Positions 3,298 through 60,600 of a stretch of DNA of 64,000 nucleotides are shown one piece after another. Within the stretch, counting starts at the first letter, position 1. Each line of letters opens with the position of its first letter. The position numbers were made by a program, and so were the translations under genes. The stretch lies in NCBI RefSeq assembly GCF_018873765.1, contig NC_057919.1, forward strand, positions 23,042,698 through 23,106,697, read 5' to 3'. Origin of the DNA: Telopea speciosissima (Eukaryota; Streptophyta; Magnoliopsida; Proteales; Proteaceae). The notes below the pieces were generated by a model. It was given only the letters and a program-made list of their open reading frames with translations, ran no database searches and had not been told where the DNA came from.

Positions 3298-3375
3298 GGG
3301 TCTTTAGCTCAAATCGGTAGAGCACTTGGAACATGAGCATGTTCCAGGGATGGTGGTTCAAATCCACCAAGGCCC
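3298..3375 (+). tRNA. tRNA-like sequence with extended anticodon arm (probable pseudogene)
   Basis: Acceptor arms GGGTCTT and AAGGCCC pair over 7 bp with one G-U. The D arm is GCTC/GAGC and the T arm is GGTGG-TTCAAAT-CCACC, with a B-box-like GGTTCAAATCC and an A-box-like TAGCTCAAATCGG. A T run (a pol III terminator signal) follows directly. The anticodon arm is abnormal: a CTTGG/CCAGG stem encloses 14 nt that can extend the hairpin, so no standard 7-nt loop exists and no amino acid can be assigned. It belongs to the same family as the copy at 20343-20414. It could be a tRNA relic, the head of a SINE or a plant tRNA-like repeat. Confidence 0.6.
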
Positions 3376-4849
3376 TTTTTATTCAACTGTTCATAACATA
3401 GTTATGACAATAATCTAGACAATTTCAAGTGGTGTTTTCCATTATCTTTGTCTCTCCCTCACATTAATTTCTTTCTTTGGGATATGTGGATCACAAAATG
3501 ATGTCATTGACTCTGTTCAAAACCTTAACTTCAATTAGAAGTAAGAATTAAGTGATTGTGGTACACTATATTCATATTTTTTTTTATGTTGGATTGCAAG
3601 GTAATGACATCATATAGAAGTCATTGTTTTGTTTCAAATGGATCTGTTTCTGCCATTTCAATTCTACCATTGTTCACTGTAAGAGAACCCAGTTACTGCA
3701 CCCTGGCTTACCAACCAATCAAAAAAGCGATTAACAAACCCATCTGTGTGCACAGCACAATGGAACACATGGGTCACTTACATGGGTCACGTACAAGGCT
3801 GACCAAGGATTAAGAAGGGGAAAAAGGTCCAACCTTATTCTTTCTCTGTTTATCAGATAAGGAACTTACCATCCATTTGTAACAGTTGTGAATTACTATT
3901 AGATAGAAATTTTGATCTCTCAAGTCTCTCATTGAGATTGAGAGCCTTTCAACTGAATATCTTTGCTTTACAGTTACTTGAACATCAGTCTGAGATCTTC
4001 CTCACTATAAATGCATTTCAATTCAGCAAGATGGGGTCATATTTGTTTCAACTTGTATAAATAAAGAACTTCTGCAAAAATGAGAAGCAAAATCTGCACT
4101 GAACTACAGATTTGGTGTTACAGCACCAAGGTTTGAACTTTAACCCATAAGTGAACCAAACTCTAGGTACTCAACCAAGTTTAACCAAAATTAAACACAA
4201 GTCTAACCCTACCCAAGCTTCCAAATTAGCTTCCCACATTTCGAAACATAACTCATACTCTTTCCTCAGCCAGTGTTTTTTTTCTTTTTAACTTCAAAAA
4301 CTAAAACTTCTGTAGGCTTCTTTCATGGGAAAGAATTTTTCAAAAGTATGGTATGTGACTGGGTTTTGGTCTACAGCCATGCTCTGTCTACAGTTGACAA
4401 TCACATATTTTAGGATTGAGCCCTGGCATTGCATTATCCCCCACAAGAATGAAAAGAAAAGTAAAATTAGACAAATTTAAGTACCTGGGAAGCTTGTAGA
4501 GGAGCAGTTACAACCAGGGACTAGAATCTGTTGGCTTGTTTTTGCAATTGAGATTTCCATATTATATATGTTTGCTTGTATAAGATGAAAAATCCAAGAT
4601 GATATGGGAAAAGAAGATGTAAAAAACGGTTATTTAGATAGCTTTAGGATAAATCCAAATCACAGACTCAAGGTAACTAAACGATTATTCATATAGATTC
4701 AAAAGAATCCACCTGACAGACTCAGGGTAATCAAATAGTTATTCATAAAGAATCATGTTACAGAATCAGGGTAACCAAACAGTTAAATTTTAAAATTACG
4801 AATCCACAAAATCTGATTTTAGAGAACCTGATCCAGAATCACAATCTAA
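3376..4849. other. Intergenic stretch, nothing recognised
   Basis: AT-rich DNA without a recognisable gene or a mobile element that I can bound. A short degenerate repeat, roughly an 'AATC-ACAGA-TCA-GGTAA-CAAA' phrase, recurs between 4650 and 4800, just before the hAT element. Confidence 0.4.
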
Positions 4850-4857
4850 TTCTTCAA

Positions 4858-6069
4858 CATAGTTGTCATGGCGTCGCCATGGCAGTCCTGGCGCTGCCAT
4901 GGCGTCCTGGCGCTGGGAGAGATGGCATGTCGAGCTACGCCATGGTGGATGTAAATATATCGTTCAATATGGCTTCCATGGCGTCGCCATGGACGCCATA
5001 CCACAATATGTTGGCATATCGTTCGATATTTATACATATAAAAGTTAGATTTAAAATTTTTTTTTAAACCATTTAATAGCTTAGATGTTTTTTTATTAAT
5101 GTCTATTGGAGGTGTAACTTAATAGTATACACCTATAATACACATTATCAATTTATCACAAAGTTTAAAAACAATAAACATATTACCCTAATAATTGGGG
5201 GAAAATAGAAATTGCAAAAGGCTAAACAGTTCGAGACTTCGAGGTTGAGAGCAGAGAGTCGAGACAAAGGAAGTGAGGAAGATTTCGTGAAACAAGATTC
5301 CGACAAGCTTCCTGCAACTCTCAACAGCAATTCTTCACTCTTTCGAAGTTGCAAACATCTCCGACAACCTCCAAGACTCCATTCCGGTAAGTTTTTATTA
5401 TTTTGTAATTTGTATTTTTGTTTAATATGGTTCTCTTCCTCCTCCCAATCCTCTGCAACTCGATTTTTGAGTTCAATTCTTCTCCTCCCAGCCTCCAATA
5501 ATACACACAAAGACAAAGAGAGAGTTGAGAGACAGAAGGGGGAGGAGATTTATTTCAATTAGTACTTAGTAGTCCTCTCAGTTTTTTTTTTTTTTTCTCT
5601 TTTCTTCTTCGCTACTGCTTGTACAGTGGGAGATAGTCGAGAGACAGAGGGGGGCCTCTCAATTTTTTTTTTCATCTTCGCAACCTCTTTGTTCAGTCTC
5701 TATGAACAGGGACTCAGGGAGATAGTCGAGACTCGAGAGACAGAGGAGAGCCTCTCGGTTAGCTTATCATTTGAGTTTTACTATTGCTTTCAATTATTTG
5801 ATATGTTAATTTATATTTTCAATTTTTCATACTTTCATATACACTAATGGATATTAGTTACACTTTCATGAATTAAACCATAGTGTCATAGTATATTAGT
5901 AGTAGTAGTATAATACACTTTCATGTTCATTTTTTTATGTAATAGAACATATATTATAACATATTAAATGACATTACAAAATAGCGAAAATAAAAAATTA
6001 AACATGATCGATATATCGACGTGATACCCTTCCACCGACTTGGATCGCCATGACGCCATGACAACTATG
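4858..6069. mobile_element. Non-autonomous hAT element, CATAGTT family
   Basis: The left end CATAGTTGTCATGGCG and right end CGCCATGACAACTATG are inverted repeats. They are flanked by a perfect 8-bp duplication TTCTTCAA (4850-4857 and 6070-6077), the hAT signature. The terminal 11 bp match the 5.3-kb hAT at 35111-40413. The subterminal region repeats GGCG/CGCC blocks. The interior holds no transposase; it has a 5'-UTR-like pyrimidine-rich stretch with imperfect direct repeats of 'gagacagagg' near 5528-5760. The right end plus its target site is tandemly duplicated (see 6010-6137). Confidence 0.9.
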
Positions 6070-6137
6070 TTCTTCAAAACGATATACCTTTCCACCGACT
6101 TGGATCGCCGTGACGCCGGGACAACTATGTTCTTCAA
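6010..6137. repeat. 60-bp tandem duplication of the hAT right end plus target site
   Basis: Two copies of about 60 bp, each running from TTCCACCGACTTGGATCGCC through the terminal GACAACTATG and the 8-bp target site TTCTTCAA. The second element-like end is at 6129 and its target-site copy is at 6130-6137. The copies differ at a few bases, so the duplication is not brand new. Confidence 0.85.
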
Positions 6138-7872
6138 AACAACCGAACCAAACACTTCCTACTATGATGTAGATGCCTCAGCCTCCTTAGAAAGTAGCAT
6201 GATTTTCTTGTTCAGTTTATCAGCATTAAGATCCATAAATTCAGGAAACTTTCGTACCCCATTCTTAACAAACATTACAGATGGAACTTCCTTCACTATA
6301 AAATCTTTGCGCTTAGGCTGCAAGGGATACATTCCAATGACTCAGTTAACAAAAGAGACCAAATTTAACACATTTAATTGAAAGAAGAATGGTGAGACAG
6401 AGATGGGAATGGGATCTTTTTTCACCTTAAAGTTGTTCACATCCACCTGGAGGAATTTAAAAGTAGCTTGTTCCACTGCCTTGACAGTAGCTTGTTCCGC
6501 TTGCTTGACAGTAGCCTGTTTCGCAACTTTGCCAGGAGCGTGTTCTGCTGCCAGGCCTTTCATGATCTGGATAAGGTCCCTAGATGGAGAGTTAGAAGTG
6601 ATAAAGCAAACCATCACCTGCATATAATTAACAAGTTGTTGAGAAAGTAAATTAGATATAGAGAAATAATCATGATATAGATGTTATAAATCTGGAAATA
6701 TATATAATAAAGTCTCTCCGTCTTACTGGAAAGGAAAGTTCCTTGTTCTGAGGCTATTTCCTGCCACATGAAAGGTCAATTTGGATCTGATGACCATTTT
6801 ATTGATGCGGTTACCTCTGGTTTACCCACAGGCCAAATTAGCTGCCATCTCAATTCTATGGTACACCACGTGTTAAGAACTTTCCCAGTGTATTTTAAAT
6901 GGATCAAACTCAAAAACAAAAAAAAAAAGGGGTCTCTTTCAAACCTTTGATCTAACACTAGTTAATGTTCAATTGAGCTATAAATCACTTGACACCTGAG
7001 TATTAAATGTATACTTGAACAAGGAACAGATTCCTTGTGTGCTGACCTAGGAAATTTCTCTGTTAGATAAGACAAACCCTTGGCTGTCTGAGCACTAAAA
7101 GAAGAAAGAAATTCTCTGTTAGATAAGGAAGCCATTCCTTAGACTACCACCTTCAATCGCCTATGTAACAAAATTTTGTGGCCAATTTCATCCATATGGC
7201 GACCATCTAGTGGATTTTCTTCTATGTATTTCAGCATCAAATCATTAGAGGATTACTGTGGCAATCTGAAAAAAATTCAAAGCCAAATTCAATAATATGG
7301 TCTACCAAGTATTAAACCATTTCTTAGTCGTCTAAATCTTAACCTAAACTGATCTTTAATTGTGCCATGTGCTATAATACTTTAAGGTTGGAACTACCAG
7401 CCGAGTGAAGGGGAACAATGTGACATGGACAACAGGTCCATAAAATTTTGAGTGCCAACAAAGCTTCCAGTTGGCAGATATTTTAAGTATCAGTAGTATG
7501 GATTAGGGGGAATGCTTTTCCTCACCTGGTAGACACAGTATGACTTTCTTATCCATTGATACAGCTGCTGCATGGCAGCCTAGTTGGTGCTTCATTCTAT
7601 TGTGTGTGCACACACTGTCCTCATATTTTTCAGCCCAATTGGAATTCCATCATTTCACAGACTAATGGATTAAAAATTAATTCAAAAGTAGTTTTTATCC
7701 TTTCATTTTTAAATAATTCTGACCACCGAGAATACAAAGGGAGGAGCATTATCAAGGAGTTCAAATCATAAAAAGCGCAACTAGAATAATAATAAATCGA
7801 ACTAATGACAACAAACAAGGCTTAACTAACGCAATAAAGTGAGATATAAAGGTTTCTAATTTATGCCAGTAG
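6138..7872. other. Intergenic stretch, no gene recognised
   Basis: AT-rich. A stretch at about 6440-6550 repeats 'gtagcttgttcc-ctt-ttgacagtag' three to four times (about 24-bp spacing), giving an open frame with repeated Ala/Cys/Thr residues on either strand. It resembles no family known to me. The rest shows no genes. Confidence 0.4.
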
Positions 7873-18475: not shown

Positions 18476-20342
18476 AGTTTTACCAAAGTGAACAATGAAG
18501 ACCATCATGTCCGTCCTTCTTTGGACCTGTCTTCTAATATCTCACCTATTTCTTCACCTTCTGTTGTTGGAACCTCTTCCAATGAGCTTGCAGAGAGATT
18601 AGTTGCGGACTTCTTTACTAAACTTCCTATACTGACATTTTTAAAGATTATGAATTGCATAATTTAGTGAGGCTTTCATTAGCTTCAACTTCATTGGAGA
18701 TGTTAAATTAAATGATGTGATGATTCTCATTTTGTCTCACAGCCAGAGCCCCTTGACCACTGTAATTCCATTATGTGTTCCCCTTCTCTTAGGGAACCTT
18801 GCCTCTTAATTTTTCAAGGAAGAGAAAAGAGATTGACATAAGATTTTAATGTGAACAAGCTACCTGGTTTGCAACTCCCACACAAATAGGGGAAACAGTG
18901 CTCTGATAGGCTCACACTGCTAGTGAGAGTTGTTACAAATTGAAGTGAAGGCTATATATGTTGAGTCTGATATCAAACCCTGTGACCGGAAAAACATAGC
19001 CACTGAATTGAAGTCAGTATTGTATTCCAAAATTTGATTTCACCAAGAAGTTCTAAATTTGAAGCTATCTACAACTAAAATTACTTGACCAGCATCAAGA
19101 AACAATTAAATTCACTCTTTATTGATATTCCTTGGTCCCTATTGTATACATTGTTGATGTGTCATGCATGGAGTTCCCTAGAAAACACAAACATTCCCTA
19201 CAATATAGTACAATGATATAACTTGATCAATCAAACTACTAGATACACTGAAATATGAGCATCGATTTTACCAATTAACTTGGTAACAATTTCAGTTCAT
19301 AATGATTGATCTTTTTGAAAATAATAGTTCTAGTGAGAAGAGCCTTTGAGATTAAAAAAGAGAAAAACACATGAACCTAAATTTGCCAGAACAAAAATGC
19401 AAACAAAATATCCATGATAATGGCATACTGACAATGACAACTAAAAAACATCAATAGATCTGTTCCCATATATAAGAAACACAGAAAGAAGTGAAATCAA
19501 GTTTGGACACCAAAACAACCAAAAAGGGAAAGTTTTCTCCTACATAGAGGGATTTCATAACACATGAAATGATGAGAAGTAAAACGATCACAGAATCTGA
19601 ATCAACAGTCAAGCAATTGAAGTACAGGAATAGAGATAAGATACCAGTTACAAAATCATAAAATCCCCAGTATCAAATTAGTGCATGAAGTAATTACACA
19701 GTACAGGGAAGTATCTGACTCCGTAAGTTCACCTTTTATGGCAGTGAATTTTCTAGTCTTCTATAAGGAGGGGGGGTTGGAGTGCATGAAAGAAAATTAA
19801 AAGGCCACAGAAAATGGACAATGCATGCATAACTGGAGTATAAAATAATCGTTTGTCAAATAACAGAGCAATATAAAATGCTAATTTGCCAACTTAGTAT
19901 CGCGAATGCAAGGTCATTCGAAGGCTCTGAGGCTCTCTGATCTCTTGAAGATGGAAACATAGAAGAACAAGAATGAAGAGAAGACGCATTGGCGTTTTAA
20001 ACTCGTTTTGACTATGGGCAGGATTTCCATTGTTTTCTCTGATTTTCATGTTCTATTTTGAATGCCAAAAAATATGAAAATTAGTAGTCACCATACTGGA
20101 CTTATCATGACATTAACATAGACTTGGCTTATGAACTGTTAACATTACAACAGAAGGAGCTGAAATTGTTTAATCTGACAAAGATCACATTCTAAAATAT
20201 TCAATGTCTGTTTTTTTTACTTGTCACATGCACTGATGTGTTGACAAGGGGAAAGTCTGAATGCTCGATCCGAATGGAATACAAATTTAGACACAACCCG
20301 ACCCAAATAGATTAAAAAAAAAAAGACACAAGAAAATTCAAT
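18476..20342. other. Intergenic stretch, no gene recognised
   Basis: At about 18500-18720 a short segment reads like the end of a copia polyprotein ('LADFFTK'-type wording) and may be a further fossil scrap. The rest to 20342 is AT-rich without recognisable genes. The stretch GCATTGGCGTTTTAAACTCG near 19987 has no match that I know. Confidence 0.35.
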
Positions 20343-20414
20343 GGGTTTTGATGGATTCGAACCATCATCTCTTGGGGAATCCCCAAGTGCTCTACCTATT
20401 TGAGCTAAAGACTC
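20343..20414 (-). tRNA. tRNA-like sequence (probable pseudogene), same family as 3298-3375
   Basis: The minus strand gives a 72-nt cloverleaf: D arm GCTC/GAGC, anticodon stem CTTGG/CCAAG with 7-nt loop GGATTCC, and T arm GATGG-TTCGAAT-CCATC with a perfect B box GGTTCGAATCC. The acceptor GAGTCTT/AAAACCC has two mismatches, and the base before the anticodon position is G instead of the universal U, so a working tRNA is unlikely. It shares CTTTAGCTCAAAT and GGTAGAGCACTTGG with the copy at 3298. Confidence 0.55.
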
Positions 20415-22999
20415 ACATAGAAAAGCAAATGAGTGCAGTTTTGATTGAATAAGAACAACATAATTTATATGGTCTTGTCTATCTGAATGGTCCTTAAGCC
20501 TTTTTTATAGAAAAGGCTGTAAAGATGAACATATGACCAGTCATAATAATAATCTGTCACTAATATGGTTTCCATATACTATTGCTCAGATTAAAATTGC
20601 AGCAAGAAATGGGTAATTCCCGAGCTGTGGTATTAAGATAGTCCTAAGGTATTTTCATATCCTAAGGATGTTAGCCTATAATCGTGGTTTTATTTAAAAA
20701 AATTGAATCTCTTCTCACACAAAACCTTACCAGCCCTTAAAAGCCCTGATGTCATGAATACTTAATTCCTCACAAGAACTTACAGCATTCTTGGTCCTCC
20801 GGAAATCTTAGAAGTAAAGAAATTCTCCTACTAGCAGAAATTTATAGTAACAAATAGACTAATAGACAAAGACAAAGCACAAGTGATAAGATTAGAGTTA
20901 GCTTTCATTATTAACCATGATAAAAGATAAAAAAGTTGAATCATCAGAAAATATATCAATTAGATGCATAGAATTCAGAAGCATAACCTTCACCAAAAAA
21001 AAAAAAATTCAGAAGCATAACACCTCTGGGAAAACTGTGACCAATGCTATAAGCTGTTTAGGCACTCCATCAAATGCAGTCTTCAATCAGTCAAGAATCT
21101 ACACCATAACATTAAATGAACAGAAAACAGCTTAGCAGTGAGCAGATATTAAAGAAATCATCGAAGGGGAAAAAAAGGAATCTATGTTACCAATTGGGCA
21201 GATCATAAAGAGAGCCTACAGAACCAGTTCCCTCAGCATACATGCAGTGTGGAACTCACACTTGATGGTATCGCCAAGAAGATCCCCATATAAAAGTTGA
21301 CCTCTTTGGATGGCAACAGGTGTTCATTCTAAGACATCGATATGGACAAGGTCAACATGGAATGGATGGTTACTACAACTAAACAGTACCAATTTGCAGC
21401 AGGAGATATTCCATGTGAAACCCACAAAGTGATTACAACTTTCACATGTTCGGCATTTGACACCAGTATGCCCATGGTAGAACATCCATATGGTACATGA
21501 TGAAGGTAGATTTTCTCCAACTTGAAGTCTGTCAACTGCATCTCTCAAGAACTTACACTAATGCAACAGTTCTTGCCAAATGCATGCTATTTGGAACTAG
21601 CAACCTCATCCATTTAGGAAATGGTTTCTGCCTCACAGAGCTGCAACAACTGCATGAAAGCGAAATGGAGTTGACCAATTCAGTTGAGTTTTTTCATAGA
21701 GGTTCCACCAAATACAAAATGTAAGTGGTTCATACATGTGCTTGATGTGCAGCTACTAAATGTTAAGGGAAAGATGACTTGCAATTGACAGGATTTTAGA
21801 CTCCAGCCTAGATACAGCAGCCATGATAGTAGAAGACTCCAAGGAATGTGGGATGTGTTCAAGACATCTCGGGCCAGAAACAGAATGCCACCATTTTTAC
21901 ATAATTCCTAGAATAGCAATAAAGCTGGATATTTCAGCAAATGAGACACAAAAAAATCAAGAAATATTAACATAAGAAAAATCTAAGGTACCCATCTAAC
22001 TATCTATAAAAATGTCTACCACTGCATTCAGAAGAGGGTGGGGGTGGGTTGTTCTCAACCAAGTCTACACAGGAACTCCCTCAATTCAACAGTCCCAAGT
22101 TTCTGCATATTTTTCCTTGGTGGCTGACCATGACTATTGTGTCCAATCAGGCCATCAAGCCTGATCAATTTTAGCCAAAATGGCTTGCACTTAGGTGCCA
22201 TCAAATGCTGAAGACTACCTAGCCCCCAAATATCAACCAGCTACACTGGTGCTAATACTGGCTTAGATTTCCCAGTGTCTCACTATACGCTGGTAGTGAC
22301 AATCATACAGAAGGGCTAATCGAAAATTTTTTCTCCGGATTATTAACTTGTTCTCAAACTTAAGTATGAGGCCCTTAAATGGAAAACCTTATTCCTTAGT
22401 AGGCGCTCTTGGAACAACTTTTGTTGGCACAACAACTGAAGAAACTGTATTGAAGACTCACATTGATGGCAAAATATAGTGCAATGTTCGTTCAGCATCT
22501 GAAAGACTAGATTTCTTGCAGGAAAAATCAGCATTCAATCATGAGGGTTTGATGTGGAAGAACTTAAATGTCCATACAAACAGCACTGGAAGCTACACCT
22601 ATAAACGCATCAACCTGTCACAGAAAGGTCAAGGATCCAAATGAAGATGTAAGCATAAAATGTTAAACCACCCATCCCCTAACAAAAATCAGTGGCCGAT
22701 AATAAAAGCAAGCCTGAATTTCAATGGATGAGAGAATCAGAACATTAGAATATACAAGCCTGCATAAAGAATCTATGGATAACTCCTGGCATTACCAGAA
22801 AATAAGGTTTCCCTGGATGACCCAGTGAGAGTCTCAGAGATAAAATTTGTAAAATCAAATCCAAAGATAGACACTAGTTTTGATGTTCCAGGAAAATGGA
22901 TGTCTTGTTTCAAATTATGAGTTGATTCAAACCACATAGCTTAGAGCACAGATATAAATCAGTTCTTTCGTGGCATTCTTTCAATGGAGCTCAGGTGAG
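20415..22999. other. Intergenic or intronic stretch, no gene recognised
   Basis: AT-rich. Several short open frames occur on both strands (for example 21324-21548 and 21497-21724), overlapping each other and without motifs. If the candidate exons at 23-24 kb belong to a real minus-strand gene, this stretch could hold its later exons, but I could not identify any. Confidence 0.35.
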
Positions 23000-24835: not shown

Positions 24836-26250
24836 ATGAGGAAACTGTGCCCAAATTTCGACCGTGAGGATGGCCTAGAGACCGTTCTTGAGGTCCCCAT
24901 TCCAGAAGAGATGTTCACATGCATGAGCATGGGCGGCGGCAACAACAACAATAACACCAACAATAGCGCCCTCCGCTGGCAGAACATGCGCACCTGGATG
25001 AAGTCCCAATGTGCAGACAAGTTGAACTCTGCCCCTCCCCTCGCTGGCCGCAACGCCGATCTTCAATTTCTTCTCAACGTTGTGGGCTCTCCTCTCATCC
25101 CTCTGCAAGTCCAGCATGATTCCACCATCATTCGCCCAATCAAAGATTGTTCGATTGTAAGCAACAACAACAAAAACCCATCTTCTTAATTTCTTATTCT
25201 TCAATTCCATTTTGATTTCATATAATTTAATACGACATGAAATGAATGTGACTGGTTTCTGATAGGAAGCTTCCACAGCCAAATATATCGTTCAGCAATA
25301 CATTGCGGCCACCGGAGGATTAGCGGCATTGAATGCCGTCCATAGCATGTATGCCATTGGACAGGTAAAGATGACCTCTTCAGAATTTCACCTAAGTGAG
25401 GGCGATGAGAGCGTGAAAGCCAAAGGCAATGCTGAAATAGGCGGCTTTGTCCTTTGGCAAAAGAACCCTGACTTGTGGTACCTTGAGCTGGTGGTTTCTG
25501 GCTGCAAGGTCAGCGCCGGCAGCGACGGCAAGGTTGCCTGGAGGCAATACGCAGCCCAACAATCACATGCCTCCAAAGGTCCCCCAAGACCCTTGCGCCG
25601 CTTCATACAGGTATCATTCCATGATCTATGGACATTAAATTGGATAGGTTAAAACGGTTTGATTTAACGTGTTCTATAGCTCTGGAGCTTTTACAGTTTT
25701 TTGACATATGGGTATAGTACCTACAATTTGCAGGTTGAACTAAATACTTTTTCGTTTACTTGTGAAGGGATTGGATCCAAGGTCAACAGCGAATTTGTTT
25801 TCGGATGCGGTGTGCATAGGAGAGAAGATCATCAACAATGAAGACTGCTTCATATTGAAGTTGGAAGCGAGTGCATCAACCTTAAGAGCCAGAAACACAA
25901 ACAACTTCGAGAACATCCACCACACCATATGGGGATACTTCAGCCAGAGAACTGGGCTTCTCATGAAGTTTGAGGACTCACATTTACTGAGCATGAAGAA
26001 GGGTAGAGGAGATGACAGTATCTTCTGGGAGACAAGCATGGAATCAGTGATTGAAGATTATAGATACATTGATGGTCTCAACATTGCTCACAGTGGAAAG
26101 ACTGTTGTCACATTGTTTAGATATGGAGAGGGCTCAACTAATCACAAGAGAAAGATGGAGGAGACTTGGGCAATTGAGGAGGTTGATTTTAACATCTGTG
26201 GACTCACCATGGATTGCTTTCTACCTCCTGCAGACCTTAAAAGGGAATAA
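24836..26250 (+). CDS. DUF620 family protein
   Basis: Three exons, 24836..25156, 25266..25610 and 25768..26250, all phase 0 with GT-AG introns of 109 and 157 bp, giving 382 residues. The protein opens MRKLCPNFDREDGLETVLEV, has an Asn run near residue 35 and a WQNMRTWMKSQ segment, and then shows the conserved DUF620 blocks: TAKYIVQQYIAATGG, GGFVLWQKNPDLWYLELVVS, KGPPRPLRRF, GLDPRSTANLFSDAVCIGEK, HTIWGYFSQRTGLL and the C-terminal EEVDFNICGLTMDCFLPPAD. The length fits this plant-specific family. Its biochemical role is not established, so no function is claimed. The start is the first ATG in frame after a TC-rich leader with a CCT repeat (24790-24812). All conserved blocks are intact, so the gene looks functional. 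Confidence 0.95.
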
Positions 26251-31144: not shown

Positions 31145-31402
31145 TAGGGGTGTAAATGAATAGCCGAAATCCGTTTCCGTATCCGTTTAGCACTATCCGA
31201 ATCCGTCCGAAAGCTAAACGGATGCGGATATGGATAGGCTATAGCTATCCGAAAAGCTATATTTACATGTAAACAGATAAAATATCCGATCCGTATCCGT
31301 GTTCGTATCCGTTTAGCATTATTCGAATCCGTCCAATATCTAATCGGATGCGGATGTGGATATAGCACTATCCGAGCCGAATCCGATCTGTTTACAGCCC
31401 TA
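31145..31402. mobile_element. hAT-type MITE, TAGGG ends
   Basis: A 258-bp element starts TAGGGGTGTAAATG and ends CTGTTTACAGCCCTA (inverted repeats), with a perfect 8-bp duplication GGTATACT (31137-31144 and 31403-31410). The interior is built of repeated 'ATCCGT/CGGAT' words on both strands and can fold back on itself. It inserted into an older GC-rich dispersed repeat. Confidence 0.85.
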
Positions 31403-31880
31403 GGTATACTTGGCCCTAGTAGGGTTGGGATGGGCTTGGATTTAGGTTAAGGCTCCTGGGGTTGGGTTAGGGTTAAGGCCAACCCCAGCCCAGCCCAGCC
31501 CAAATGCTTGACATAAGTTTTTCAGTTGGATTGATCGGACCAATTCCTGAAATTCCAACCCCGATTCCATTTTCACCCCAAAATTTCTTAGTATAATAGT
31601 ATCAGTTGGTTAGACCGATTCACGACGATTACGATCCGATTCCCCGATTCTGGTTTTTAAAACCCTGCACTGCCCTCAGTGCTTCAACCGAGGTCGTTGA
31701 AGGCAGCACTTGTGGAGTTGTAGCCGACGCTGAGAGAGCCGTTGGACACCGGCGGGATGAAGTCGACCAAAATGTACGGTTTAAAGGATCTGTAGGTATT
31801 TCCTCTTCGTTGGTTCTTCTTTGTCCCCTCCAAGAACAGCTGTCTAAGGTGCTCCGAATTTCTAACAATTACATGAGCCT

Positions 31881-33551
31881 ATGAGCTTGACCAGTCGTTG
31901 TTCTGATGCATTATCGAAATGCGGAACACCTGATCCGTCTCTCTTCATCTCAACCCTCTTGAAAGCTTGCAGAACAATCCGAAACCTCGAACAAGTTCAC
32001 GCACAGATTATCCAGAAGGGAACTGAACAAGATAACTTCCTAATTTCCCAGTTCGTTTGTCGCTGCAACTCATTTTCCAACGTAGGTTACGGTATAAGTG
32101 TTTTCAATCGCGTTTGTAAACCAAATATCTATCTATGGAACTCTATCATTAAAGGGTATTGCGATAATTCTTCTGTGAGTGAAACCATTTCTATTTTCAA
32201 TCGTATGAAGTTGTCTGAAGTGGTTCCCGATAAATTCACTTTTCCTTCTTTAATTAAAGCGTTCTCTAGTGTGTCTGCGATAAGGGAAGGCAGGGTACTT
32301 CACGGCTCAATAGTGAGATACGGAGCAGAGACGGATATTTTTGTTAGTACCGGTTTGATTGATTTCTATGGGAAGTGTCATGAGATTGATTGTGCTCGGA
32401 AGATCTTTGCTGGGATGTCTCGCAGGAATGAGTTTTCTTGGACAGCTATGATTGTTGGGTACTTAGCTTTGGGGAATTTGGCGTCAGCGGTAAAGCTTTT
32501 CAATGAAATGCCATGCCGGAATCCTGCATCCTGGAATGCGATGATTAGCGGGTATGTGAAGTCTGGTGATCTGACGACTGCACGGAAGCTGTTTGATCAA
32601 ATGCCAGAGAGGAATGTGGTTTCCTTCACATCATTAATATGTGGGTATGCCAAGGCAGGTGACATGGCATCAGCACGTTTTCTTTTTGATCAATCTCCAG
32701 TTAGAGATATTGTGTCTTGGTCGGCCCTGATATCGGGCTATGCCCAGAATGGTCAACCCAATGAGGCTGTGAAGATCTTCCTTGAGATGCATTCCAAAAA
32801 CGTTAGACCTGATGAATTTGTAATGGTGAGCTTAATGTCCGCATGTTCCCAACTTGGTAATTTGGAGCTAGCCAAATGGGTTGATTCTTTTGTGGTCCAG
32901 AACTCAATGGATCTTTGTCGAGCTCATGTTACTGCGGCTCTCATTGACATGAACGCTAAATGTGGGAATCTAAAAAGGGCTTTTTGTTTGTTTGAGGAGA
33001 TGCCAAAACGAGACCTGTTCTCATATTGTTCAATGATTCAGGGCCTGTCAATTCATGGACTTGGGGGCCAGGGTGTCAGGCTCTTTACTCAAATGCTTGA
33101 TGAAGGCCTGACTCCTGATGATGTAGCCTTCACGGTTGTCCTTAATGCTTGCAGCCATGCAGGCCTTGTTGAGGAGGGTTGCTTGTACTTTAATTCCATG
33201 AAGAATGACTACTCCATAATTCCTTCTCCAGATCATTATGCCTGTATGGTTGATCTTCTTGGAAGAGCTGGGAAGTTAAAAGCAGCCTATGAACTCATAA
33301 AATCAATGCCTGTGGAGCCACATGCTGGTGCCTGGGGTGCATTGCTTGGTGCATGTAGGATACACTGTGATATTGAGCTTGGGGAGGTGGTTGCTAGTCG
33401 GATTTTTGAGCTTGAGCCTCACAGTGCAGGTAGTTATGTGTTATTGTCAAACATTTATGCTGCTGCGGATAGGTGGTTGGATGTTTCTAATGTGAGGAAC
33501 ATGATGCGAGAGAAGGGGATCAAAAAGATACCTGGTGTCAGTTGGATTTAG
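31881..33551 (+). CDS. Pentatricopeptide repeat protein, PLS class, E subgroup
   Basis: A single-exon gene of 556 residues. PPR proteins bind organelle transcripts sequence-specifically and act in RNA editing, splicing or stability. After MSLTSRCSDALSKC comes a run of P, L and S motifs from about residue 20 to 470, recognisable by recurring phrases such as SWNAMISGYVKSGD, ARKLFDQMPERNVVSFTSLI and IVSWSALISGYAQNGQPNEA. The E region follows (WGALLGACRIHCDIELGE, SYVLLSNIYAAADRW) and ends GIKKIPGVSWI, without a DYW domain. From memory the closest Arabidopsis relative is At5g37570, an E-type protein; the match is strong across the length. Lacking DYW, an editing role would require a DYW partner; this is inference. 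No clear targeting peptide is visible at this start. All motifs are intact. Confidence 0.95.
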   Translation: MSLTSRCSDALSKCGTPDPSLFISTLLKACRTIRNLEQVHAQIIQKGTEQDNFLISQFVCRCNSFSNVGYGISVFNRVCKPNIYLWNSIIKGYCDNSSVSETISIFNRMKLSEVVPDKFTFPSLIKAFSSVSAIREGRVLHGSIVRYGAETDIFVSTGLIDFYGKCHEIDCARKIFAGMSRRNEFSWTAMIVGYLALGNLASAVKLFNEMPCRNPASWNAMISGYVKSGDLTTARKLFDQMPERNVVSFTSLICGYAKAGDMASARFLFDQSPVRDIVSWSALISGYAQNGQPNEAVKIFLEMHSKNVRPDEFVMVSLMSACSQLGNLELAKWVDSFVVQNSMDLCRAHVTAALIDMNAKCGNLKRAFCLFEEMPKRDLFSYCSMIQGLSIHGLGGQGVRLFTQMLDEGLTPDDVAFTVVLNACSHAGLVEEGCLYFNSMKNDYSIIPSPDHYACMVDLLGRAGKLKAAYELIKSMPVEPHAGAWGALLGACRIHCDIELGEVVASRIFELEPHSAGSYVLLSNIYAAADRWLDVSNVRNMMREKGIKKIPGVSWI

Positions 33552-35102: not shown

Positions 35103-35110
35103 AAGAAAAG

Positions 35111-38100
35111 CATAGTTGTCACGGCGGCATGGCGGTCCAAGGCGGTGGAGGCCTGTCTAAGCGCTTAGGCGGTAGAGCGGCCGCCTAAGCGGAGCTTAAG
35201 CGGTAAAGGCGGTCTAGTGTTAGTTTTCTCCCTCCCCCCCCCCCAAACACTCAATAGTCAATACATGATGGCATGATGCATCATAGTATCATATCTTATA
35301 TCATTAAAAATTAAATTTAAGCCATCTCAAGTCATCAAAATGAAAAATCATACATGACACATAAAAATTCAAAATAATCAAACATCATAAATTAGTTAAA
35401 AAACTAAAAGACATAGCACAAAATCACAAATGACTAATCAACATTCTCTTATTTAGTAATCACTAATCAGTTAATCACTAATCAATAATCACTAAGTCCT
35501 AGATAAAAAATGTGTTATTATCATCATTTCATAAAAGACATAGTTGCATAGCATACCTTAACCAGGATGCTACCAAGAAAATGAAAAAATTGAAGAGATG
35601 TCAACTGTCAAGACTCAAGACTAAAGAATCAGGATGTTCATGTTGTCCATGACTCCATGTATCAATCCTGAAAATTAACAATGCAAGCGCATGCTAATTG
35701 TTAAAAACAATTAATAGAGAAGAAAGAAGAAATAAATCAAATGAAGGAGGGGAAAAGGAAATAAGACGAAGAAATGAAGAATATGAAAGACTCAAATATC
35801 CTAGTTTAAGCAGTCAAATACTCAAATACTCAAGACTTCAAGAGTCAAGTTAAGTGTCAATGTCAAAGACTCAAAATATCCAAATACATATGTCAAATGA
35901 TTTAATCAAAATCATCATCAAGTAAATTAGCAGCTGGTAGATGATCATGATCTTCTTGTTGTTGTTCCATGGAACCACGTGCCCTTTCTCCAAAATTATC
36001 TATGACATCCTCGTCGTCATTCACATCTTCCTCTTCTACCGTATCTCCATCTGATCCTGAATCATCTTCAACAATAGCCGTTTGGGCTATCCCTCGATTA
36101 CGACGCGCGTAAGAGTTGATTGCTCCAGAGGTTGATGGTTGAGCTCTCCTTGCTCGGTTTTGGCCTTCAAATGATGTAGATGCCCCCATTGCTCTATCAG
36201 CAGCGCCCCATGTGAGATCATCCTGGGGATGGACTAAATCATCCATTGGTTGGCTAACCATCCACTCACTAGTCCAGTCTAACTCATCAAGCAATAGGGG
36301 ATCATAATTTCTATTCTCCTCACGCCTTTGTCGAAACCTTTCTTGAAGGCGGCGATTATATTGAACATAGACTAGATCATTCAAACGTTCATGTTCTAGT
36401 CTATTCCTCTTCTTGGTGTGAATCTGAATTCAATAGAGGATCCCAAGTCATTCTTCTATAAACTAAATAACAAAATTAAAAGTCTAAAAATAAAAAAAAT
36501 AAATGTAATCACAAAATACTTACAAAATCAAATGTGCTCCAGTTGCGCTCACAACCAGAAGAGGTACAACAAAGGCCCAGTAAACGCCGTGCAATCCTTG
36601 AAAGCTCAAAAGCATCACCTCCATGTGTATCCCACCAAAGAACTATAAAGTATAAATATAATAAAAAAAAATTGGATTAATATATCATACAAAGTAGGTA
36701 CAAACTACAAACAAAATAACTAAATAATATAAAATAATTAGGCAATTAGCTACTTACTAGGATTCATAGTTGTTCGTTGTCTAATGGCCATATTGCTCGA
36801 AAAAAGACCTCGAGCATTTCTATATTCATCAGCTTGATGTAATATCTTGTCTTGTAAAGATGGATCAGGCACTAATCTTGAGGTGACTTGATTAAAAGCC
36901 GTTTGTAAAGTTTGTCTCATTTGATAATCCTCAGCTTCTGAATACTGAAAAAATTTCCCAGGATTAAGAAACAATGCAGCAGCATACAATGGGCGCTCCA
37001 TCTGACACTCCCATCGCCTATTAACAATATTTATGACTTTCTTCCACAACCTCTCTTTATCCCCAAAATTTTTCTTAATCATCTTTTTAGCCTCTACCAT
37101 GGCAACATAGACTTCAGGCAAGGCAGGCTTCTCATCAGCATCTACAATCCTCAAAACAACAATAAGTGGTTTTGATGCTCTGATACAGTCTTCCACACCA
37201 TTCCAAAATGTAATAGCAAAGACCGTTTCGGCCACTTTCTTTCCTGTCTCTGTCTTTGCCAAATTAGAATGCTTCCAATCATCAGAAATAAATAAATGCC
37301 TCAAGTCATCCTTATGCCTCAATAAGCTCTGGAGTGTTAGAAATGAAGTTGCAAATCTTGTTACAGCAGCCCTCACAAGATCTCTCCCATTTGTTTTAGC
37401 TCTCATGGCATCTAGAAGGCGTGTGTGTCTGTAAATGAATGTTGTTATTTTCCTAGCCTTCACTATCACCTCCTTGTATGCCTTTAAGTTACCAATATCT
37501 TCCAACATAAGATCAATGCAGTGGGCTGCACAAGAAGTCCAATAGAGCCTTGTCCTCTTCTCCATCAACAATGCACCAGCTGCTTTATAATTGGCAGCAT
37601 TATCTGTAACAACTTGCACAACATAGTCTTCCCCAATTTCTTCTACCTTGCTATCAAGTAATTGAAACAAGGTATTTGCATCTTGTACATAACTTGATGC
37701 ATCAACAGAACCCATAAAATAAGTCCCCTCTGGACAGTTGACAAGGAAGTTGATCAAATGTCTTCCCTTTTTATCTGTCCACCCATCAGACATGAGTGTA
37801 CATCCAAACTGCTTCCAATACCCTTCATAGGTCTTTTTCATCTCTACAGTTCTCTCCTTTGCTGACTTTAATAAAGGCACCCTCGCTTCATGATAAGTAG
37901 GGGGCCTATATCCTGACCCATATTGTGCAACGGATTCAATCATCACTTCAAAGCTTCTTGACTTTAGTGCATTAAATGGAATCCAACACTCATAAAGCCA
38001 ATCCACAATATGATTATCAACTCTCTTTTTCTCTTCAGTTGATCTCATCCGGTTCTCTACTGTAGTTTGGTTACGGCCTTTAAGCCTCCTATCGGCAACC

Positions 38101-40413
38101 ACTTGTTCAGGTGTCCGTCTCACATGAGCATCCATGGGACCCCTTACTTGTGGCTGAATTATGACATTCCTCTTTCTCTTTGCAGCTGTACCAGAGCTTG
38201 GAATCACTTTGGAAGAAGATTGAGACCTACCAGTATTAGGACCAGATTGAGACTGTATCTGCTCAACCTGTAGAGATGTCTCTTCTCCTCCTCCTCCTCC
38301 CTCATGATGATGATGATCATCATCATCATCCAATATATCTGCTGCCTTCTTCTTCCTATTGCGCATTAAAGCTTCATTCATCTCTTGAGCAATTGCTGTA
38401 GTTGTCTTGGTGCACTTCGCAACATCTCCATAGCCACCCACCAAATGTTGCTTTATCCTTTTAATCCCACCTCTGAGATCTTTTTTGCACAGATTGCATT
38501 TGACAAGATTTTTGTCTGTAAGGTCAGGCCAATACCCATACTTCCACCCTGGGTCATTTGATTTGGCCTTCCTCTTTGGGTCTTTGAATGGATCATACCC
38601 CGCAGTACTGCCATTATCAGCCCCACTACTAGCAACGCCAACATTACCACCCTCGCCGTTGCTATCCATTGTGTAATGAATCAATATTCAATACTTTGCA
38701 GGTTTGCAATGTGCCAACTGCCAAGGGATAAAAGTAACTATTGAATCTCTGATTCATACTTTCAAAGAAAAAAATGTTGCAAAGAAAAAAAGAAAAGAAT
38801 CAGCATCAGCATCCATTGCTCTAACATCAATTCATCATCACATCATGTCATTGCAAAGGGGACAAAAAAAATAGAGAAGCAGGGAAGCTACATCAGTATC
38901 TAATATTCTAGATTTCTAGTATCTGACTAATCTATTTTAGTGATTCAGGTACTCTCCATTACAAAGAGAACATCAAAACAGAGAAGAAGAAGCAGCAGCA
39001 AGTGTTAGACTGTTAGTACTTAGTACAACAGAGAAGAAGAAGAAACAGCAGTAAGCAGTTAACCAATAAAAAAAACAGAGAAGACACAGCAGCAGTTAGA
39101 GGCTTAGAGCGTTACAGAGAAGCAGCAGGCAGCAGTTTACCAAGTTACTATAAGTCTATAATACCATTACCAAGCCAAAAAAAAAAAAAAAAGCAGCAGA
39201 GAAGAAGTAGCAGAACCAAATCTCTTGAGCAATTTCTGTAGTTGTTAGTACTACAGAAGAAGAAGAAGAAGAAGAAGAAGAAGCAGCAGTCAACCAATAA
39301 AAAAACAAAAACAGAGAAGAAGCGCAGCACAGCAGAGGATGTTAGTGTGTTACGAGAAGCAGCAGACGAGTAGTTAACCATGTTACCAAGCCAAAAAGAA
39401 AAAAGCAACATAGAAGAACCAGAAGAAGCTTAGAAGTTGCGATTCTGGACTTAAAAAAAAAAAAAAAAAGCAAGAGCGAGCATTACATGCTAGAGAAGAA
39501 GAAGCGGAAGAAGTAAAGAAGTTACCAAGCAAAAAAAAAAGGAGAGTTACCGACTTACCGTTACAGACTACAGAGAAGAAGCATCGATAGAAGCTATCAA
39601 ACAAAAAAAAAAAAAAAAACAGAGAAGAACTTACCGTTACTCTACAGAGAAGAAGAAACATAGAAGTAGAACTATAGAAGTTGCAAAGCAATGAAGCAAA
39701 AAAAAAAAAGACAAGAAGTTACCGTTCTGGATACGAGAGAAGAAGCATCATAGAACCATAGAAGTTACCAAAAAAAAAAAAAAAAAAGAGAAGATCAGAA
39801 GTTACCGTTACAGAGAAGAAGCATAGGGAGTAGAGACTTACCTTGCCGTAAACGTAGGAGGAGCCGAGGAGGAGGAAGCTTCAACTTTTGCGCAGAGGAC
39901 TCGAGAGGTAGGAGGAAACTTTGCCTTTGCCTGAGTCGAGTTGCCGTTGCCGGAGCTGGAAAGGAAGGAGGAAGGTTGCAGTGTTGCACAACCTCTTGCG
40001 TAGAGGAGTCGAGGGTTTTACTTTTAATTTCTTAGAGAAGAAGTGTAAAGGCTAAAAGCCTTTTACAGATTTACGTTTTGACCTTTAGGAATTTAGGGAT
40101 TTTAGATTTTTAGTTGTAAAGGCTATTTATCCCATGTAGCAGCGTACGTGAGATAATTATGCACCAACCATTACCAATTAAACATAAAGAATAATATATA
40201 ATTGCATGAAAAAAATAAAAAACAAACACACACTCCATATTGGCGTCCGCCTTGCCCTCATGGCGTCCCAAGGCGTCGCTTTAACCGCCTTGGCGACGCC
40301 TAGATGGTCAAGTCGGCCGCCATTCACGAGTCTTGTTAAGCGTAGGCTCGCTTAGTACCTGGGTTTCCGCCTGGACGCCAAGGCGGCGCCTAGGCGACGC
40401 CTTGACAACTATG
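35111..40413 (-). mobile_element. Complete hAT DNA transposon, 5.3 kb
   Basis: Ends CATAGTTGTCACGGCG (left) and CGCCTTGACAACTATG (right) are inverted repeats, with the perfect 8-bp duplication AAGAAAAG on both sides (35103-35110 and 40414-40421). Both subterminal regions (35120-35215 and 40240-40400) are packed with GGCGG/CCGCC and AGGCG/CGCCT words, as expected of transposase-binding arrays. A three-exon transposase gene on the minus strand reads through without interruption. About 1.7 kb between the right end and the transposase start is an A/G-rich leader with GAAGAA and poly-A blocks (on the coding strand CTTCTT and poly-T). Undamaged ends, target site and coding frame suggest a recent insertion that may still be autonomous. 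Confidence 0.93.
35902..38669 (-). CDS. hAT transposase (BED zinc finger, DUF659, hAT C-terminal dimerisation)
   Basis: Exons 36758..38669, 36524..36642 and 35902..36423 give 850 residues; phases fit and all introns are GT-AG. An upstream in-frame ATG at 38684 would add five residues. Near residue 50 a BED-type finger is visible (WKYGYWPDL, CNLCKKDL, H and C ligands after KRIKQ), followed by an acidic/His linker. The DUF659/RNase-H-like core shows SDGWTD and VVTDNAANYKAAG, which supply the two catalytic Asp, and CAAHCIDLMLEDIG. Exon 2 encodes DTHGGDAFELSRIARRLLGL and CERNWSTFDF, supplying the catalytic Glu and the dimerisation helix; exon 3 continues HTKKRNRLEHERLNDLVYVQ and ends in an acidic tail. 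It would cut and paste its own element and perhaps the shorter CATAGTT relatives. The family assignment and intactness are firm; activity is not shown. Confidence 0.92.
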
Positions 40414-40421
40414 AAGAAAAG

Positions 40422-55017: not shown

Positions 55018-55722
55018 CTCTTAACTTCCATTCAACGACAATGAAAGCTTTTCTGGTCGGTAATTAAAAGATTGTTCTCTGGATTGATCTACCCAGTTAG
55101 TCAGATCGCTCAAGTCTTGGTTGGTATTGGTTGATTCAAAAATGGTTTGTACTGAACGTTTCTAAAACGGCTTGTAATCTCGAGATTGGATCGGTATCGG
55201 CCGTGAATTTTTGATTTACTTTTAATTTTCATAATTTTTTAATACTTCTGACCGGCACTGATCCATTCCAAGACCTATCCAACAGAATCGACTTTCTGGC
55301 CATTTTTAATCAATTCGTATCGATAAAAAATCAATTCGATTTGTATCGGATTATCGGCTTTGACCGATCCTGCGATTACGAACCAAGGGAGCCACGAGTC
55401 CAGATAGCTTTCTATTTACGTAAAACGAGTCCAAAGAGGACAAGAGATTCAGATAATTATTTTCCTCGAAATTTTGACTACTAATGGAATTGTGATTTTG
55501 ATTACCTAGGGTTCCTCTAACAATTCAAGTCTTAAAACCTTTGATTCTTCCTCTTTTTAGGGCTATTCGTGGTTCTCTGAGCGAGAGTGAATTTCCCTGA
55601 GTCTTGTGATTCTGATTTTCTAGGGTTTCGTGGATGGTTCAATCTTCCTCTTTGCAGGGTTATTCGTAGCTCCTAAGCCTTCGAAACTCACACTTCTCTC
55701 AGGTCTTCTGCGGAATTCAACC
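55018..55722. other. Dispersed-repeat relic, then WNK leader
   Basis: Up to about 55390 the sequence is made of GATCGG/ATCGGTATCGG words like an old inverted-repeat element. From 55480 it reads like a 5' untranslated region (TTCTAGGGTTTCGTGGATGG) of the WNK copy that follows. Confidence 0.4.
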
Positions 55723-56584
55723 ATGAGTTCTGTGGAAGGCGAAGATCCAAAGTCTCCAGACCCTGAAGCCGTGGAAACAGACCCAATAGGTCGGTACATA
55801 CGCTACAACGACATCCTTGGCAGAGGTGCTTTCAAAACGATATACAGGGGATTCAACGAAATCGATGGAATTGAAATTGCTTGGAGCCAAATCGAACTCG
55901 ATGCGTGTTGCAGAAGCCACAAGATATTGAAATGCTTCACTCCGAGGTTCATCTTCTCAAATCCCTGAAACATTAAAACATAATCAAGTTCTATAGTTCA
56001 TGGATCGATGAGAGAAAAAACACCATCAACGTCATCACCGAATTGTTTACTTCTGGTAGCTTAAGACAGTACAGTAAGAAGCATAAGAAGGTGGATATGA
56101 AGGCCGCGAAGGATTGGGTGAGGCAGATCTTCATGGGTCTTCATAGTCCTCCTATCATTCATAGAGATCTAAAGTGTGATAACATCTTCATCAATGGAAC
56201 CACGGCGAAGTTCGGATCGGAGATCTTGGATTGGCGACGGTTTTACGTGGGACGAGAGCTCAGACTGTGGTGGGCACACCGGCGTTCATGGCACCAGAGT
56301 TGTACGAGGAGGATTACAGTGAGTTTGTGGATGTATATTCATTTGGAATGTGTATTCTAGAGATGGTGACTTTTGAATTGCCTTATTGTGAATGTAAGAA
56401 CCCAGCTCAGATATTTAAGAATGTCATGGATGGAGTAAGGCCAGTTTCCTTATCTAGGGTGAAGGATCTTGAAGTAAAGAGCTTCATTGAGAAGTGTCTT
56501 GTTGCAGCAGAGGAAAAGTTGTCTGCCAAGGATCTCTTGAAGGATCCCTTTTTCCAAGTTACCCTTTTAATTGTCTTTCTTTGA
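55723..56584 (+). pseudogene. WNK (with-no-lysine) protein kinase, intronless broken copy
   Basis: It starts [20 protein letters not shown] and then reads [20 protein letters not shown] (glycine loop), [33 protein letters not shown] (catalytic loop), [38 protein letters not shown] and [20 protein letters not shown]. This is the WNK kinase domain almost end to end. Reading it needs several frame changes (about 55900 and 56200); there is a stop after LLKSLKH (about 55973), the YLHSHD segment is missing, and the DFG region is unrecognisable. Exons that are separate in functional WNK genes run together without introns, suggesting a retrocopy; the missing C-terminal region fits either retroposition or truncation. 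It cannot encode an active kinase. Host gene family, confident. Confidence 0.85.
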
Positions 56585-57685: not shown

Positions 57686-60600
57686 TTACATAATATATGC
57701 CCTATTATAGACATAGGATCTAGAAAAATACAAATAAATAGGCAATCCTATGACACTTAGACCAGCAAGAAGCCAATAGAAGTAATCAAGATGAGCTCTA
57801 TTAAGGTTGTTTGAGAACCAACTGTCATGGCCATTCTCACTAGTTAACTTCGCAATAGCAGAGACAAGGAAGCTACTTAGAAAGCTTCCTACACCAAAGA
57901 TGCTGAGGTAAAGGGCAAGACCAACACTCCTCAAAGCTTTGGGCATCTGATCATAGAAAAATTCTTGCAGACCAACCATAGTGAAGGCTTCAGCAATTCC
58001 AAACAAGATGTATTGAGGAACCAACCACCAAACACTCATAGGAACTGTTGCTTTTGGTATATCCACTATCTTGGCCTCAATTGCAGTTTGAAGCCTTTTC
58101 CTCTCAACTAATGCTGCTACCACCATGGCGATCATAGATAAAAATATTCCAGTACCTATTCTTTGTAGCACTGTTATGCCAGAGTGTTTCTTGGTAAAAG
58201 CTCGGGCAATTGGAATGAGGACGCGATCATAGAAGGGCATGAAAAGAACAATGGAGAGACTAGTACATGTTTGAAGGGCGGCAGGTGGTATCTGAAACCC
58301 TGATGACCCTATTTTTCTGTCCATGGTGGCCCCTTGCTTGGTGAAGAATGTGGAGGATTGTGAGCTCGCAATTGCAAATACTAAACATGCAGCCCATATA
58401 GGAGCCAACCTTAGTAATGCCTTTGCTTCTTCCACCTGATTGACACTACATACTACCCAACCTTTATTGGAATTTTCAGATTCAGTAGCCATTAATGCCT
58501 TGTCAAGAAACCTGGAAAAAATGAGGAACATGAAAATAAGTGTCTATTGGGTACATGCTTTCCTGCCCCCATTCCCCATCCCTTGTTTAGTGAGATAAGT
58601 AAGGAGAAATGTTCTCTGTGGGGGGAGTGTACCCGGCCCCTACACCCAGATAGGGGAGGGGCAATGACCGCCATGCCCCAATGAAATGCAAAATAACCCT
58701 CTGTTGATGCTTCTTTGTACGCTCCTATTGGCCCCTGCACAGGCATAGGAGCGGCACTCCTGGGTAGAGAACACTTCTCCAATAAGTAAAGAGCTTGGTA
58801 GATCACTCATTGTTATCGGGAGGAGAACTCTGTAGTAGCAAAGAAAGGAGCTTCTTTGCAATCTTCTTTCTTTTGGGATGCTCATCCTCCTTTTGTCAGG
58901 AAATATATTGTATGGGATTCTTTAGGACGATCGAGATATGGTTTCATCTCTTAATTATATAATCTTTAGGGCTAAGTTTCCCTCCATCCATAGAGGACGG
59001 TTCACAAACCCCGTCTAGGGTTTTAGTATGTTCCAAATACCCTCTTGATATCCTCTCTGGACCCCACGATGAATGAGATTGCATTTACCGTGGGTAGAGG
59101 GAAACTAGGTGCTAATCTTTATTTTGACCTTCTATCTTTGTTTATTGGCTAGAGGTTTCTTTGCTGATGACATTGCCGAAGATGGGTCCTTTAGTTAAAT
59201 CGGTTGTCAAATGCTCTGCCAATGGCCATGCCTCTAATATATTCTTTTGCTGATCTTTAGAAGAAAAAAAAAAAAAATCAATAAATAGCTATTTCATCAC
59301 TTACCGGAATTGGTTAGCACCATCTAGGAGAAGAGTCTCACTACCTTCCTCATCAACAGGGGATGCTGGTGGAGTAGCTCTCCAATTCCTTGCTGCTGTA
59401 ACAAACACTTGTGCAATTCTTCTGAATGGATTATCATTATCAACATTGAAATTGTATCGATAACTGCTGGTTCCAAGCAAGAAAACTGCAAGTGCGACCA
59501 TCATACAAACACATGGAATGCCAAATCCAAGACCCCAATTCAGGTTGTCCTGAATGTATGTTAAGATCAAGTGGGTACACACAATACCACTACACATTCC
59601 AAAATACCACCAATTAAAGAAAGAACTCTTAGACTTGCATTCCTCTGGATGTTGCCCATCAAATTGATCCGCACCAAAAGCTTGTACACATGGCTTGTGC
59701 CCACCTTGTGCAAGTGCCACTAAATATAGAGAGCAGAAGAAGAAGATGATTTGGTATTGAGGAGGATGACATGATGTGGTGCTAGTGTTGTTGCTGTTGT
59801 CGCAACTAGGTGGAATCAAAGAAGGAAGCACTGCTGATAATGTTAAGAAGCTCAATCCCTACAAAACATAATCTCTCTTTAATTAGTAGGTGTTGTAGTC
59901 TTCTTCTTCTTCTCTCTTGGAATATTTTTTCTTGCTTGGCAATCTTTTAAGAAGTGCCTTAAAACTGCCCAAAATACATAGCTGAGAGCAAAAAATTAAT
60001 TAGTAGGTGTTATAGTCTTCTTCTCTCTTGGAATATTTTTTCTTGTTTGGCAATCTTGTAAGTAGTGTTTTAAGTGCCCAAAATACAGAGCAAGAGCAAA
60101 AATTACATACAATCTAAAGTTGAGAATGGGCTTTCGAGCCTATCAATGTGTGTACATACAACAACAATTCAGCCTTATCCCAACTAAATGGGGTTGGCTG
60201 CATGGATCCCTTCCAAACAAAGTAGGAAAAACTGAGATTCTCAAAAAGGAAAAGGAAAGTAAAAGGAATGAAGAATAAAAATAAAGAAATGAGACAAGAA
60301 AAGTGAAATAAAAAATGAAAAACGTAAAATGAAAGTAATAGAAAATAGGATAGCCTAGGAAATCAGGAAAATCTTAGCTACATGGTATCGACAACGTGGA
60401 TCCTTGCCCTCCAATAGGCTCTATCGGAGGTCATACTTGGCACAAGGTCCACACTGTGTACATATATACATATATATGGACCTCAAGACTTCATTTAATT
60501 GAAAAATAAAGATGTTGAACGATAGAAACACCTTCAATGGTTTTCCAAAATTTGACAAGTTGTGCACGTCATCTTCACTCCCACACCCTTAGATGCGCAC

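Follow-up and report, generated by a model that had tools for sequence, protein, structure and literature searches.

In the current report, we describe a hAT transposon of 5303 bp that occupies positions 35111-40413 of a 64,000-nucleotide stretch of Telopea speciosissima DNA (NCBI RefSeq assembly GCF_018873765.1, contig NC_057919.1, positions 23,042,698 to 23,106,697 of the forward strand; hereafter, the window). Judged from its sequence, the element is very probably a plant hAT of the DUF659 type that is complete in structure and potentially autonomous, an assessment that covers its structure, coding capacity, and family. The element potentially moves, or moved until recently, by cut-and-paste; present activity lies outside the confidence just expressed. 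A preliminary description of this DNA had proposed a complete hAT transposon, and its ends, target duplication, gene structure, and domains all check out.

Element Ends and Target-Site Duplication

The boundaries of the element are defined by a pair of short terminal inverted repeats (TIRs), CATAGTTGTCACGGCG on the left and CATAGTTGTCAAGGCG on the right, which are identical at 15 of 16 positions and share the form CATAGTTGTCA(C/A)GGCG. Immediately outside them stands the target-site duplication (TSD) AAGAAAAG, whose two copies match at all eight positions by direct reading, as the preliminary description had claimed; the ends at 35111 and 40413 that it gave were likewise recovered. The features of the two ends are as follows.

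35103-35110, no strand: left target-site duplication, AAGAAAAG
35111-35126, plus strand: left terminal inverted repeat, CATAGTTGTCACGGCG
35111-35220, no strand: left subterminal segment, rich in GGCG, with a CpG observed/expected ratio of 1.13 (window 0.44)
40244-40413, no strand: right subterminal segment, rich in GGCG, with a CpG observed/expected ratio of 1.18
40398-40413, minus strand: right terminal inverted repeat, CATAGTTGTCAAGGCG
40414-40421, no strand: right target-site duplication, AAGAAAAG

Two hallmarks of the hAT superfamily are thus present at 35111-40413, namely an 8-bp TSD and short TIRs that open with CA, the latter being the start of the hAT terminal repeat consensus as given in PMC4423477. 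The terminal sequence itself, searched as CATAGTTGTCA, TTGTCAAGGCG, AAGGCG, and CAAGGCG, was not found as a transposon end in the open-access literature, Repbase being outside this search.

The dense subterminal GGCG arrays noted earlier are also borne out by counting. On either strand, GGCG occurs 6 times in the left 110 bp and 14 times in the right 170 bp, where the remaining window predicts 0.16 and 0.24 occurrences, respectively. When the ends were shuffled at constant base composition, the left end contained a mean of 1.9 GGCG motifs and reached at least 6 in 9 of 2000 shuffles, and the right end contained a mean of 3.0 and reached at least 14 in none of 2000.

Transposase Gene and Splice Model

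Three minus-strand exons (38669-36758, 36642-36524, and 36423-35902) can be spliced into a reading frame of 850 residues plus a stop codon, with no internal stop, so that the three-exon, in-frame transposase of the preliminary description could be reconstructed in full. The gene and the region upstream of it are laid out below.

36758-38669, minus strand: transposase exon 1, with the ATG, a BED-like finger, DUF659 with D295 and D356, and TSCAAHC (C-x2-H) from residue 378
36643-36757, minus strand: intron 1, 115 bp, GTAAGT...ATAG, 18% G+C; the same in all five open combinations
36524-36642, minus strand: transposase exon 2, holding the presumed catalytic Glu (CERNWS, E669)
36424-36523, minus strand: intron 2, 100 bp, GTAAGT...TTCAG, 22% G+C; donor or acceptor differs in the four other open combinations
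35902-36423, minus strand: transposase exon 3, starting with IHTKKRNR, with an acidic tail, and ending at the stop codon
38670-40243, no strand: leader with the presumed promoter, rich in purines on the plus strand and containing loose repeats at irregular spacing

Within the splice-site ranges that were searched, five combinations lack an internal stop; intron 1 is common to them all and intron 2 varies. The longest of the five uses GTAAGT donors at both introns and keeps IHTKKRNR after the Glu segment. In this model the two exon junctions fall near residues 637 and 677, and the Pfam match to the hAT dimerization region described below spans both junctions, which supports the splice model independently of RNA. 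The leader is pyrimidine-rich in the sense of the gene, and its repeats, which carry A-runs on the plus strand, match one another at 69-74% identity; in 38670-40243, Tandem Repeats Finder reported nothing but an AGA run.

Protein Domains and Catalytic-Type Residues

Two Pfam families are clearly recognized in the predicted protein. DUF659 (PF04937), the domain that marks the DUF659 branch, is matched over its full length (residues 257-408, 3.1e-56, profile positions 1-152 of 152), and a C-terminal dimerization domain of the hAT type, Dimer_Tnp_hAT (PF05699), is matched over residues 630-700 (3e-12, 46.6 bits against a cut-off of 21.4, profile positions 12-83 of 84). Both Asp residues and the Glu segment that had been singled out in advance are found in the assembled protein, as D295 in SDGWTD, D356 in VVTDNAA, and E669 in CERNWS, motifs that we take to be the catalytic positions of hAT transposases. 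At the sequence level, D/D/E residues stand in conserved motifs, as in other members of the superfamily. According to PMC3985635, DUF659 takes in hAT transposases, has RNase H-like active-site residues that are conserved, and occurs mostly in green plants.

The BED finger of the preliminary description is marginal: the finger residues C58, C61, H75, and C86 are present, while the Pfam BED match (PF02892, residues 42-77) reaches 19.4 bits and so falls just short of the cut-off, 20.6 bits. Two further Pfam candidates, Inv-AAD (0.22) and DUF5956 (0.68), fell far under their cut-offs and were set aside. Exon 1 matched no family in NCBIfam, a prokaryote library, at E values up to 0.1. Searches of the viral_contigs and genome_contigs collections for protein relatives returned 4 and 51 pattern matches, respectively, none of which was confirmed, as is to be expected there for a eukaryotic element. 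The exact TIR sequence turned up once in each of 10 stretches of viral_contigs, occurrences that we regard as probably due to chance.

Short Relatives Within the Window

The window was scanned for exact 8-bp duplications lying 80-7000 bp apart and enclosing an inverted repeat of 12 bp with no more than one mismatch, and four elements were returned, including 35111-40413; the same scan of five first-order Markov sequences of window length gave no hit in any of the five. Two of the short elements have ends like those of the 5303-bp copy, the second of them a miniature inverted-repeat transposable element (MITE).

4858-6069, no strand: relative of 1212 bp that lacks transposase coding sequence, with TIR CATAGTTGTCATGGCG at each end and flanked on either side by the duplication TTCTTCAA
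47837-47988, no strand: 152-bp MITE with similar ends, which agree with each other in all of their first 14 bases (CATAGTTATCAAGG), flanked on either side by the duplication AACCGAAC

That three elements with like ends each carry a perfect duplication of their own, with no hits in the Markov controls, supports the transposon reading. The likeness crosses over between the ends: the 1212-bp element agrees on its right with the left end of the 5303-bp copy (35 of 39 positions identical) and on its left with the right end of that copy (42 of 55 aligned columns). By blast, the two short relatives share only their ends with the 5303-bp copy (73-90% identity), and no interior similarity was detected beyond pyrimidine/purine runs.

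Neither short relative appears to encode a transposase. A tblastn search with the transposase against the 1212-bp and 152-bp elements, together with the 258-bp element introduced below, gave short matches only (E 0.37 to 5), with a best value of 1.5 in the 1212-bp element and none at all in the 152-bp element at E values up to 10. Twelve stop-to-stop frames of at least 50 codons overlap the 1212-bp element, the longest with 133 codons, and three of the longer ones, submitted to Pfam (4717-5067, 5148-5549, and 5209-5562; 3 of the 12), matched no family at E values up to 1. The 1212-bp and 152-bp elements have the appearance of non-autonomous copies from the same family or from a sister family, and the 5303-bp copy is a plausible autonomous partner for them.

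Two side observations concern the short elements. At 6024-6140, the right terminus of the 1212-bp element is repeated in tandem along with the adjoining TTCTTCAA (57 bp at 93%, with a spacing of 60 bp), so that the element could end on the right at either 6069 or 6129, the duplication being the same in both cases. At 31145-31402 lies an element of 258 bp whose 12-bp inverted repeat is of another sequence (TAGGGGTGTAAA / TAGGGCTGTAAA) and whose 8-bp duplication, GGTATACT, is exact; situated some 460 bp upstream of a PPR reading frame, it is probably another hAT-type MITE.

Proposed Mechanism

By analogy with the hAT superfamily, on which the steps beyond the sequence features are modeled, the transposase would be translated from the spliced minus-strand transcript, and its BED-like finger would bind the terminal repeat as well as the subterminal repeats rich in GGCG. 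Assembled through the dimerization region into dimers or larger complexes, the protein would then pair both ends, an RNase H-like D-D-E core would cut them, and reinsertion with an 8-bp stagger would create the target duplication. The same transposase, or a similar one, may also act in trans to mobilize the copies of 1212 and 152 bp.

Age Signals and Alternative Explanations

The least probable alternative, to which we attach next to no weight, is that an unrelated gene happens to be bracketed by repeats and a duplication that match by chance. Purine-rich flanks and a purine-rich target do make an 8-bp match of A and G easier to obtain, but three like-ended elements with perfect duplications stand against none in the five Markov controls. 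In addition, the terminal repeat occurs seven times in the window at three mismatches or fewer (the seventh at 6114-6129, in the tandem duplication noted above), where 0.97 occurrences are expected and none of 100 shuffles reached seven. Chance was rejected on these Markov and shuffle controls. It is also very improbable that 35111-40413 is no transposon but a host gene domesticated from a hAT. Domesticated genes, of which PMC2528002 names DAYSLEEPER, likewise retain an open frame, yet domesticated copies are described there as generally without terminal repeats and duplications, and the 5303-bp copy has both as well as short relatives, on which grounds domestication was rejected.

A more serious alternative, which overlaps with the reading of a structurally complete element and which we rate, given that structure, slightly above an even chance, is that the copy is complete in appearance but dead, either silenced or damaged by missense changes, and that another copy drives the movement of the family. 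Precedent favors it: most grapevine hAT copies that retain the transposase region are not potentially functional (96 of 594 are, summed from Table 2 of PMC2528002 over eight multi-copy families, leaving out the single-copy Vinesleeper-1, Vinesleeper-2, Hatvine-4, Hatvine-5, and Hatvine-8), and full-size polymorphic rice elements are reported mostly to have defective open reading frames (ORFs), the hAT insertion DTA_Coraline being among the exceptions (PMC4423477). Against it, no stop or frameshift interrupts the 2550 coding bases, which under neutral decay places a 95% upper bound of about 0.8-1.6% on divergence since loss of constraint, assuming an indel:substitution ratio of 0.15-0.05, two thirds of indels frame-breaking, and a transition:transversion ratio of 2:1. 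The ends and duplication are also intact, and the ends are not depleted of CpG, although the same holds for the ends of the 1212-bp element (0.94 and 1.85, from 11 and 6 CpG). The 152-bp element has a CpG observed/expected ratio of 0.58 and a TpG ratio of 1.51, and GGCG stands to GGTG plus GGCA as 20:3 in the ends of the 5303-bp copy, 11:5 in those of the 1212-bp element, and 8:7 in the 152-bp element. These small counts fit, but do not show, a younger 5303-bp copy, and binding-site selection or different founding sequences would yield the same pattern. When the two flanks were joined and compared with the window, the only matches were to themselves and to one 22-bp purine run at 5589-5610 (21 of 22, across the junction), which we read as low complexity and not as an empty site.

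Several observations weigh against the reading of an intact, autonomous element that serves its short relatives. The coding region and leader, with CpG observed/expected ratios of 0.39 and 0.52, are CpG-poor like the window, and the coding value fits past methylation of the lineage, as a dead copy would have it, as well as coding bias. Since only their ends are shared, the 5303-bp copy need not be the mobilizer of the short relatives. The BED finger is marginal, its Pfam score lying under the cut-off. Among four matches up to E 10 to the sequence of exon 1 plus two intron codons, none was by name a solved transposase structure, and the best solved-structure match to exon 1 was a ribosomal protein (E 0.059). 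Finally, a single-sequence fold of exon 1 alone was uninformative and was left unused (mean predicted local distance difference test, pLDDT, 36; predicted template modeling score, pTM, 0.21). That the copy is currently active and supplies transposase to short elements of the CATAGTTGTCA type across the genome, which could make a native two-component system available from one locus, is held only as a rather doubtful proposition, well short of our confidence in its structural completeness.

Other Features of the Window

Beyond the transposons, the window contains several candidate genes. The PPR reading frame mentioned above is open over 31866-33551, carries an E motif, and measures 561 codons from stop to stop. 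Two frames at 25266-26250 match consecutive parts of DUF620 (profile positions 1-89 and 85-243) and are probably exons of one gene, as are, probably, two minus-strand frames at 57686-59858 that match POT/PTR2 transporters. A frame at 56183-56584 has a protein kinase match (profile positions 133-263), and its neighbor at 55624-55968 matched no Pfam family. On the minus strand at 2752-3382, overlapping open frames rich in proline, histidine, and threonine look like a short-period repeat array and not like genes. ARAGORN reported a tRNA-Asn with anticodon ATT at 20341-20415 (minus strand) and a doubtful tRNA with no assigned type at 3297-3377.

Comparison With Known Systems

By domains and motifs, nothing was found that sets the 5303-bp copy apart from plant DUF659 hAT transposases (PF04937 plus PF05699), which have the same domains, domain order, and catalytic-type residues as described in PMC3985635. 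The Hatvine families of grapevine, compared by description, are of the same length class, have similar TIR and TSD lengths, and include some potentially functional ORFs; Hatvine-1 is 5.5 kb long with an 18-bp TIR and an 8-bp TSD, and Hatvine-10 is 5.5 kb long with an 11-bp TIR and an 8-bp TSD (PMC2528002). In Table 2 of that source, potentially functional ORFs are listed for seven of the eight multi-copy families; relative to copies with more than 90% of the transposase, they number 7/125 for Hatvine-1, 19/90 for Hatvine-2, 28/82 for Hatvine-3, 17/35 for Hatvine-6, 10/88 for Hatvine-7, 6/76 for Hatvine-9, 9/67 for Hatvine-10, and 0/31 for Hatvine-11 (PMC2528002). The statement in the preliminary description that most plant hAT copies are broken agrees with these figures, but its view that one whole copy is notable is not supported by them, intact hATs being not rare in grapevine at 96 of 594. 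The 5303-bp copy is a clean new example of a common, known type of plant transposon.

The partnership proposed here also has counterparts. In rice, Dart and nDart, likened by description, pair a putative autonomous hAT with a non-autonomous element whose ends are identical to its own and whose subterminal sequence is similar, and differ from the present case in that nDart is tied to an albino phenotype (PMC4423477). A fungal hAT with DUF659 is described in PMC6710886. Also among fungi, MarorhAT-10 of the mushroom Marasmius oreades resembles the 5303-bp copy in combining DUF659 with a hAT dimerization region and in being accompanied by short families with similar ends; it was seen to move together with these families, and its authors conclude that the short relatives are mobilized in trans (PMC9674265). 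MarorhAT-10 differs in being fungal, in its length of 3396 bp, and in that its movement was directly observed (PMC9674265). If active, the Telopea element would add another native plant transposon with short partners for the study of how hAT MITEs are mobilized, and possibly a tagging tool, and its two like-ended short elements within 64 kb offer a ready test of cross-mobilization.

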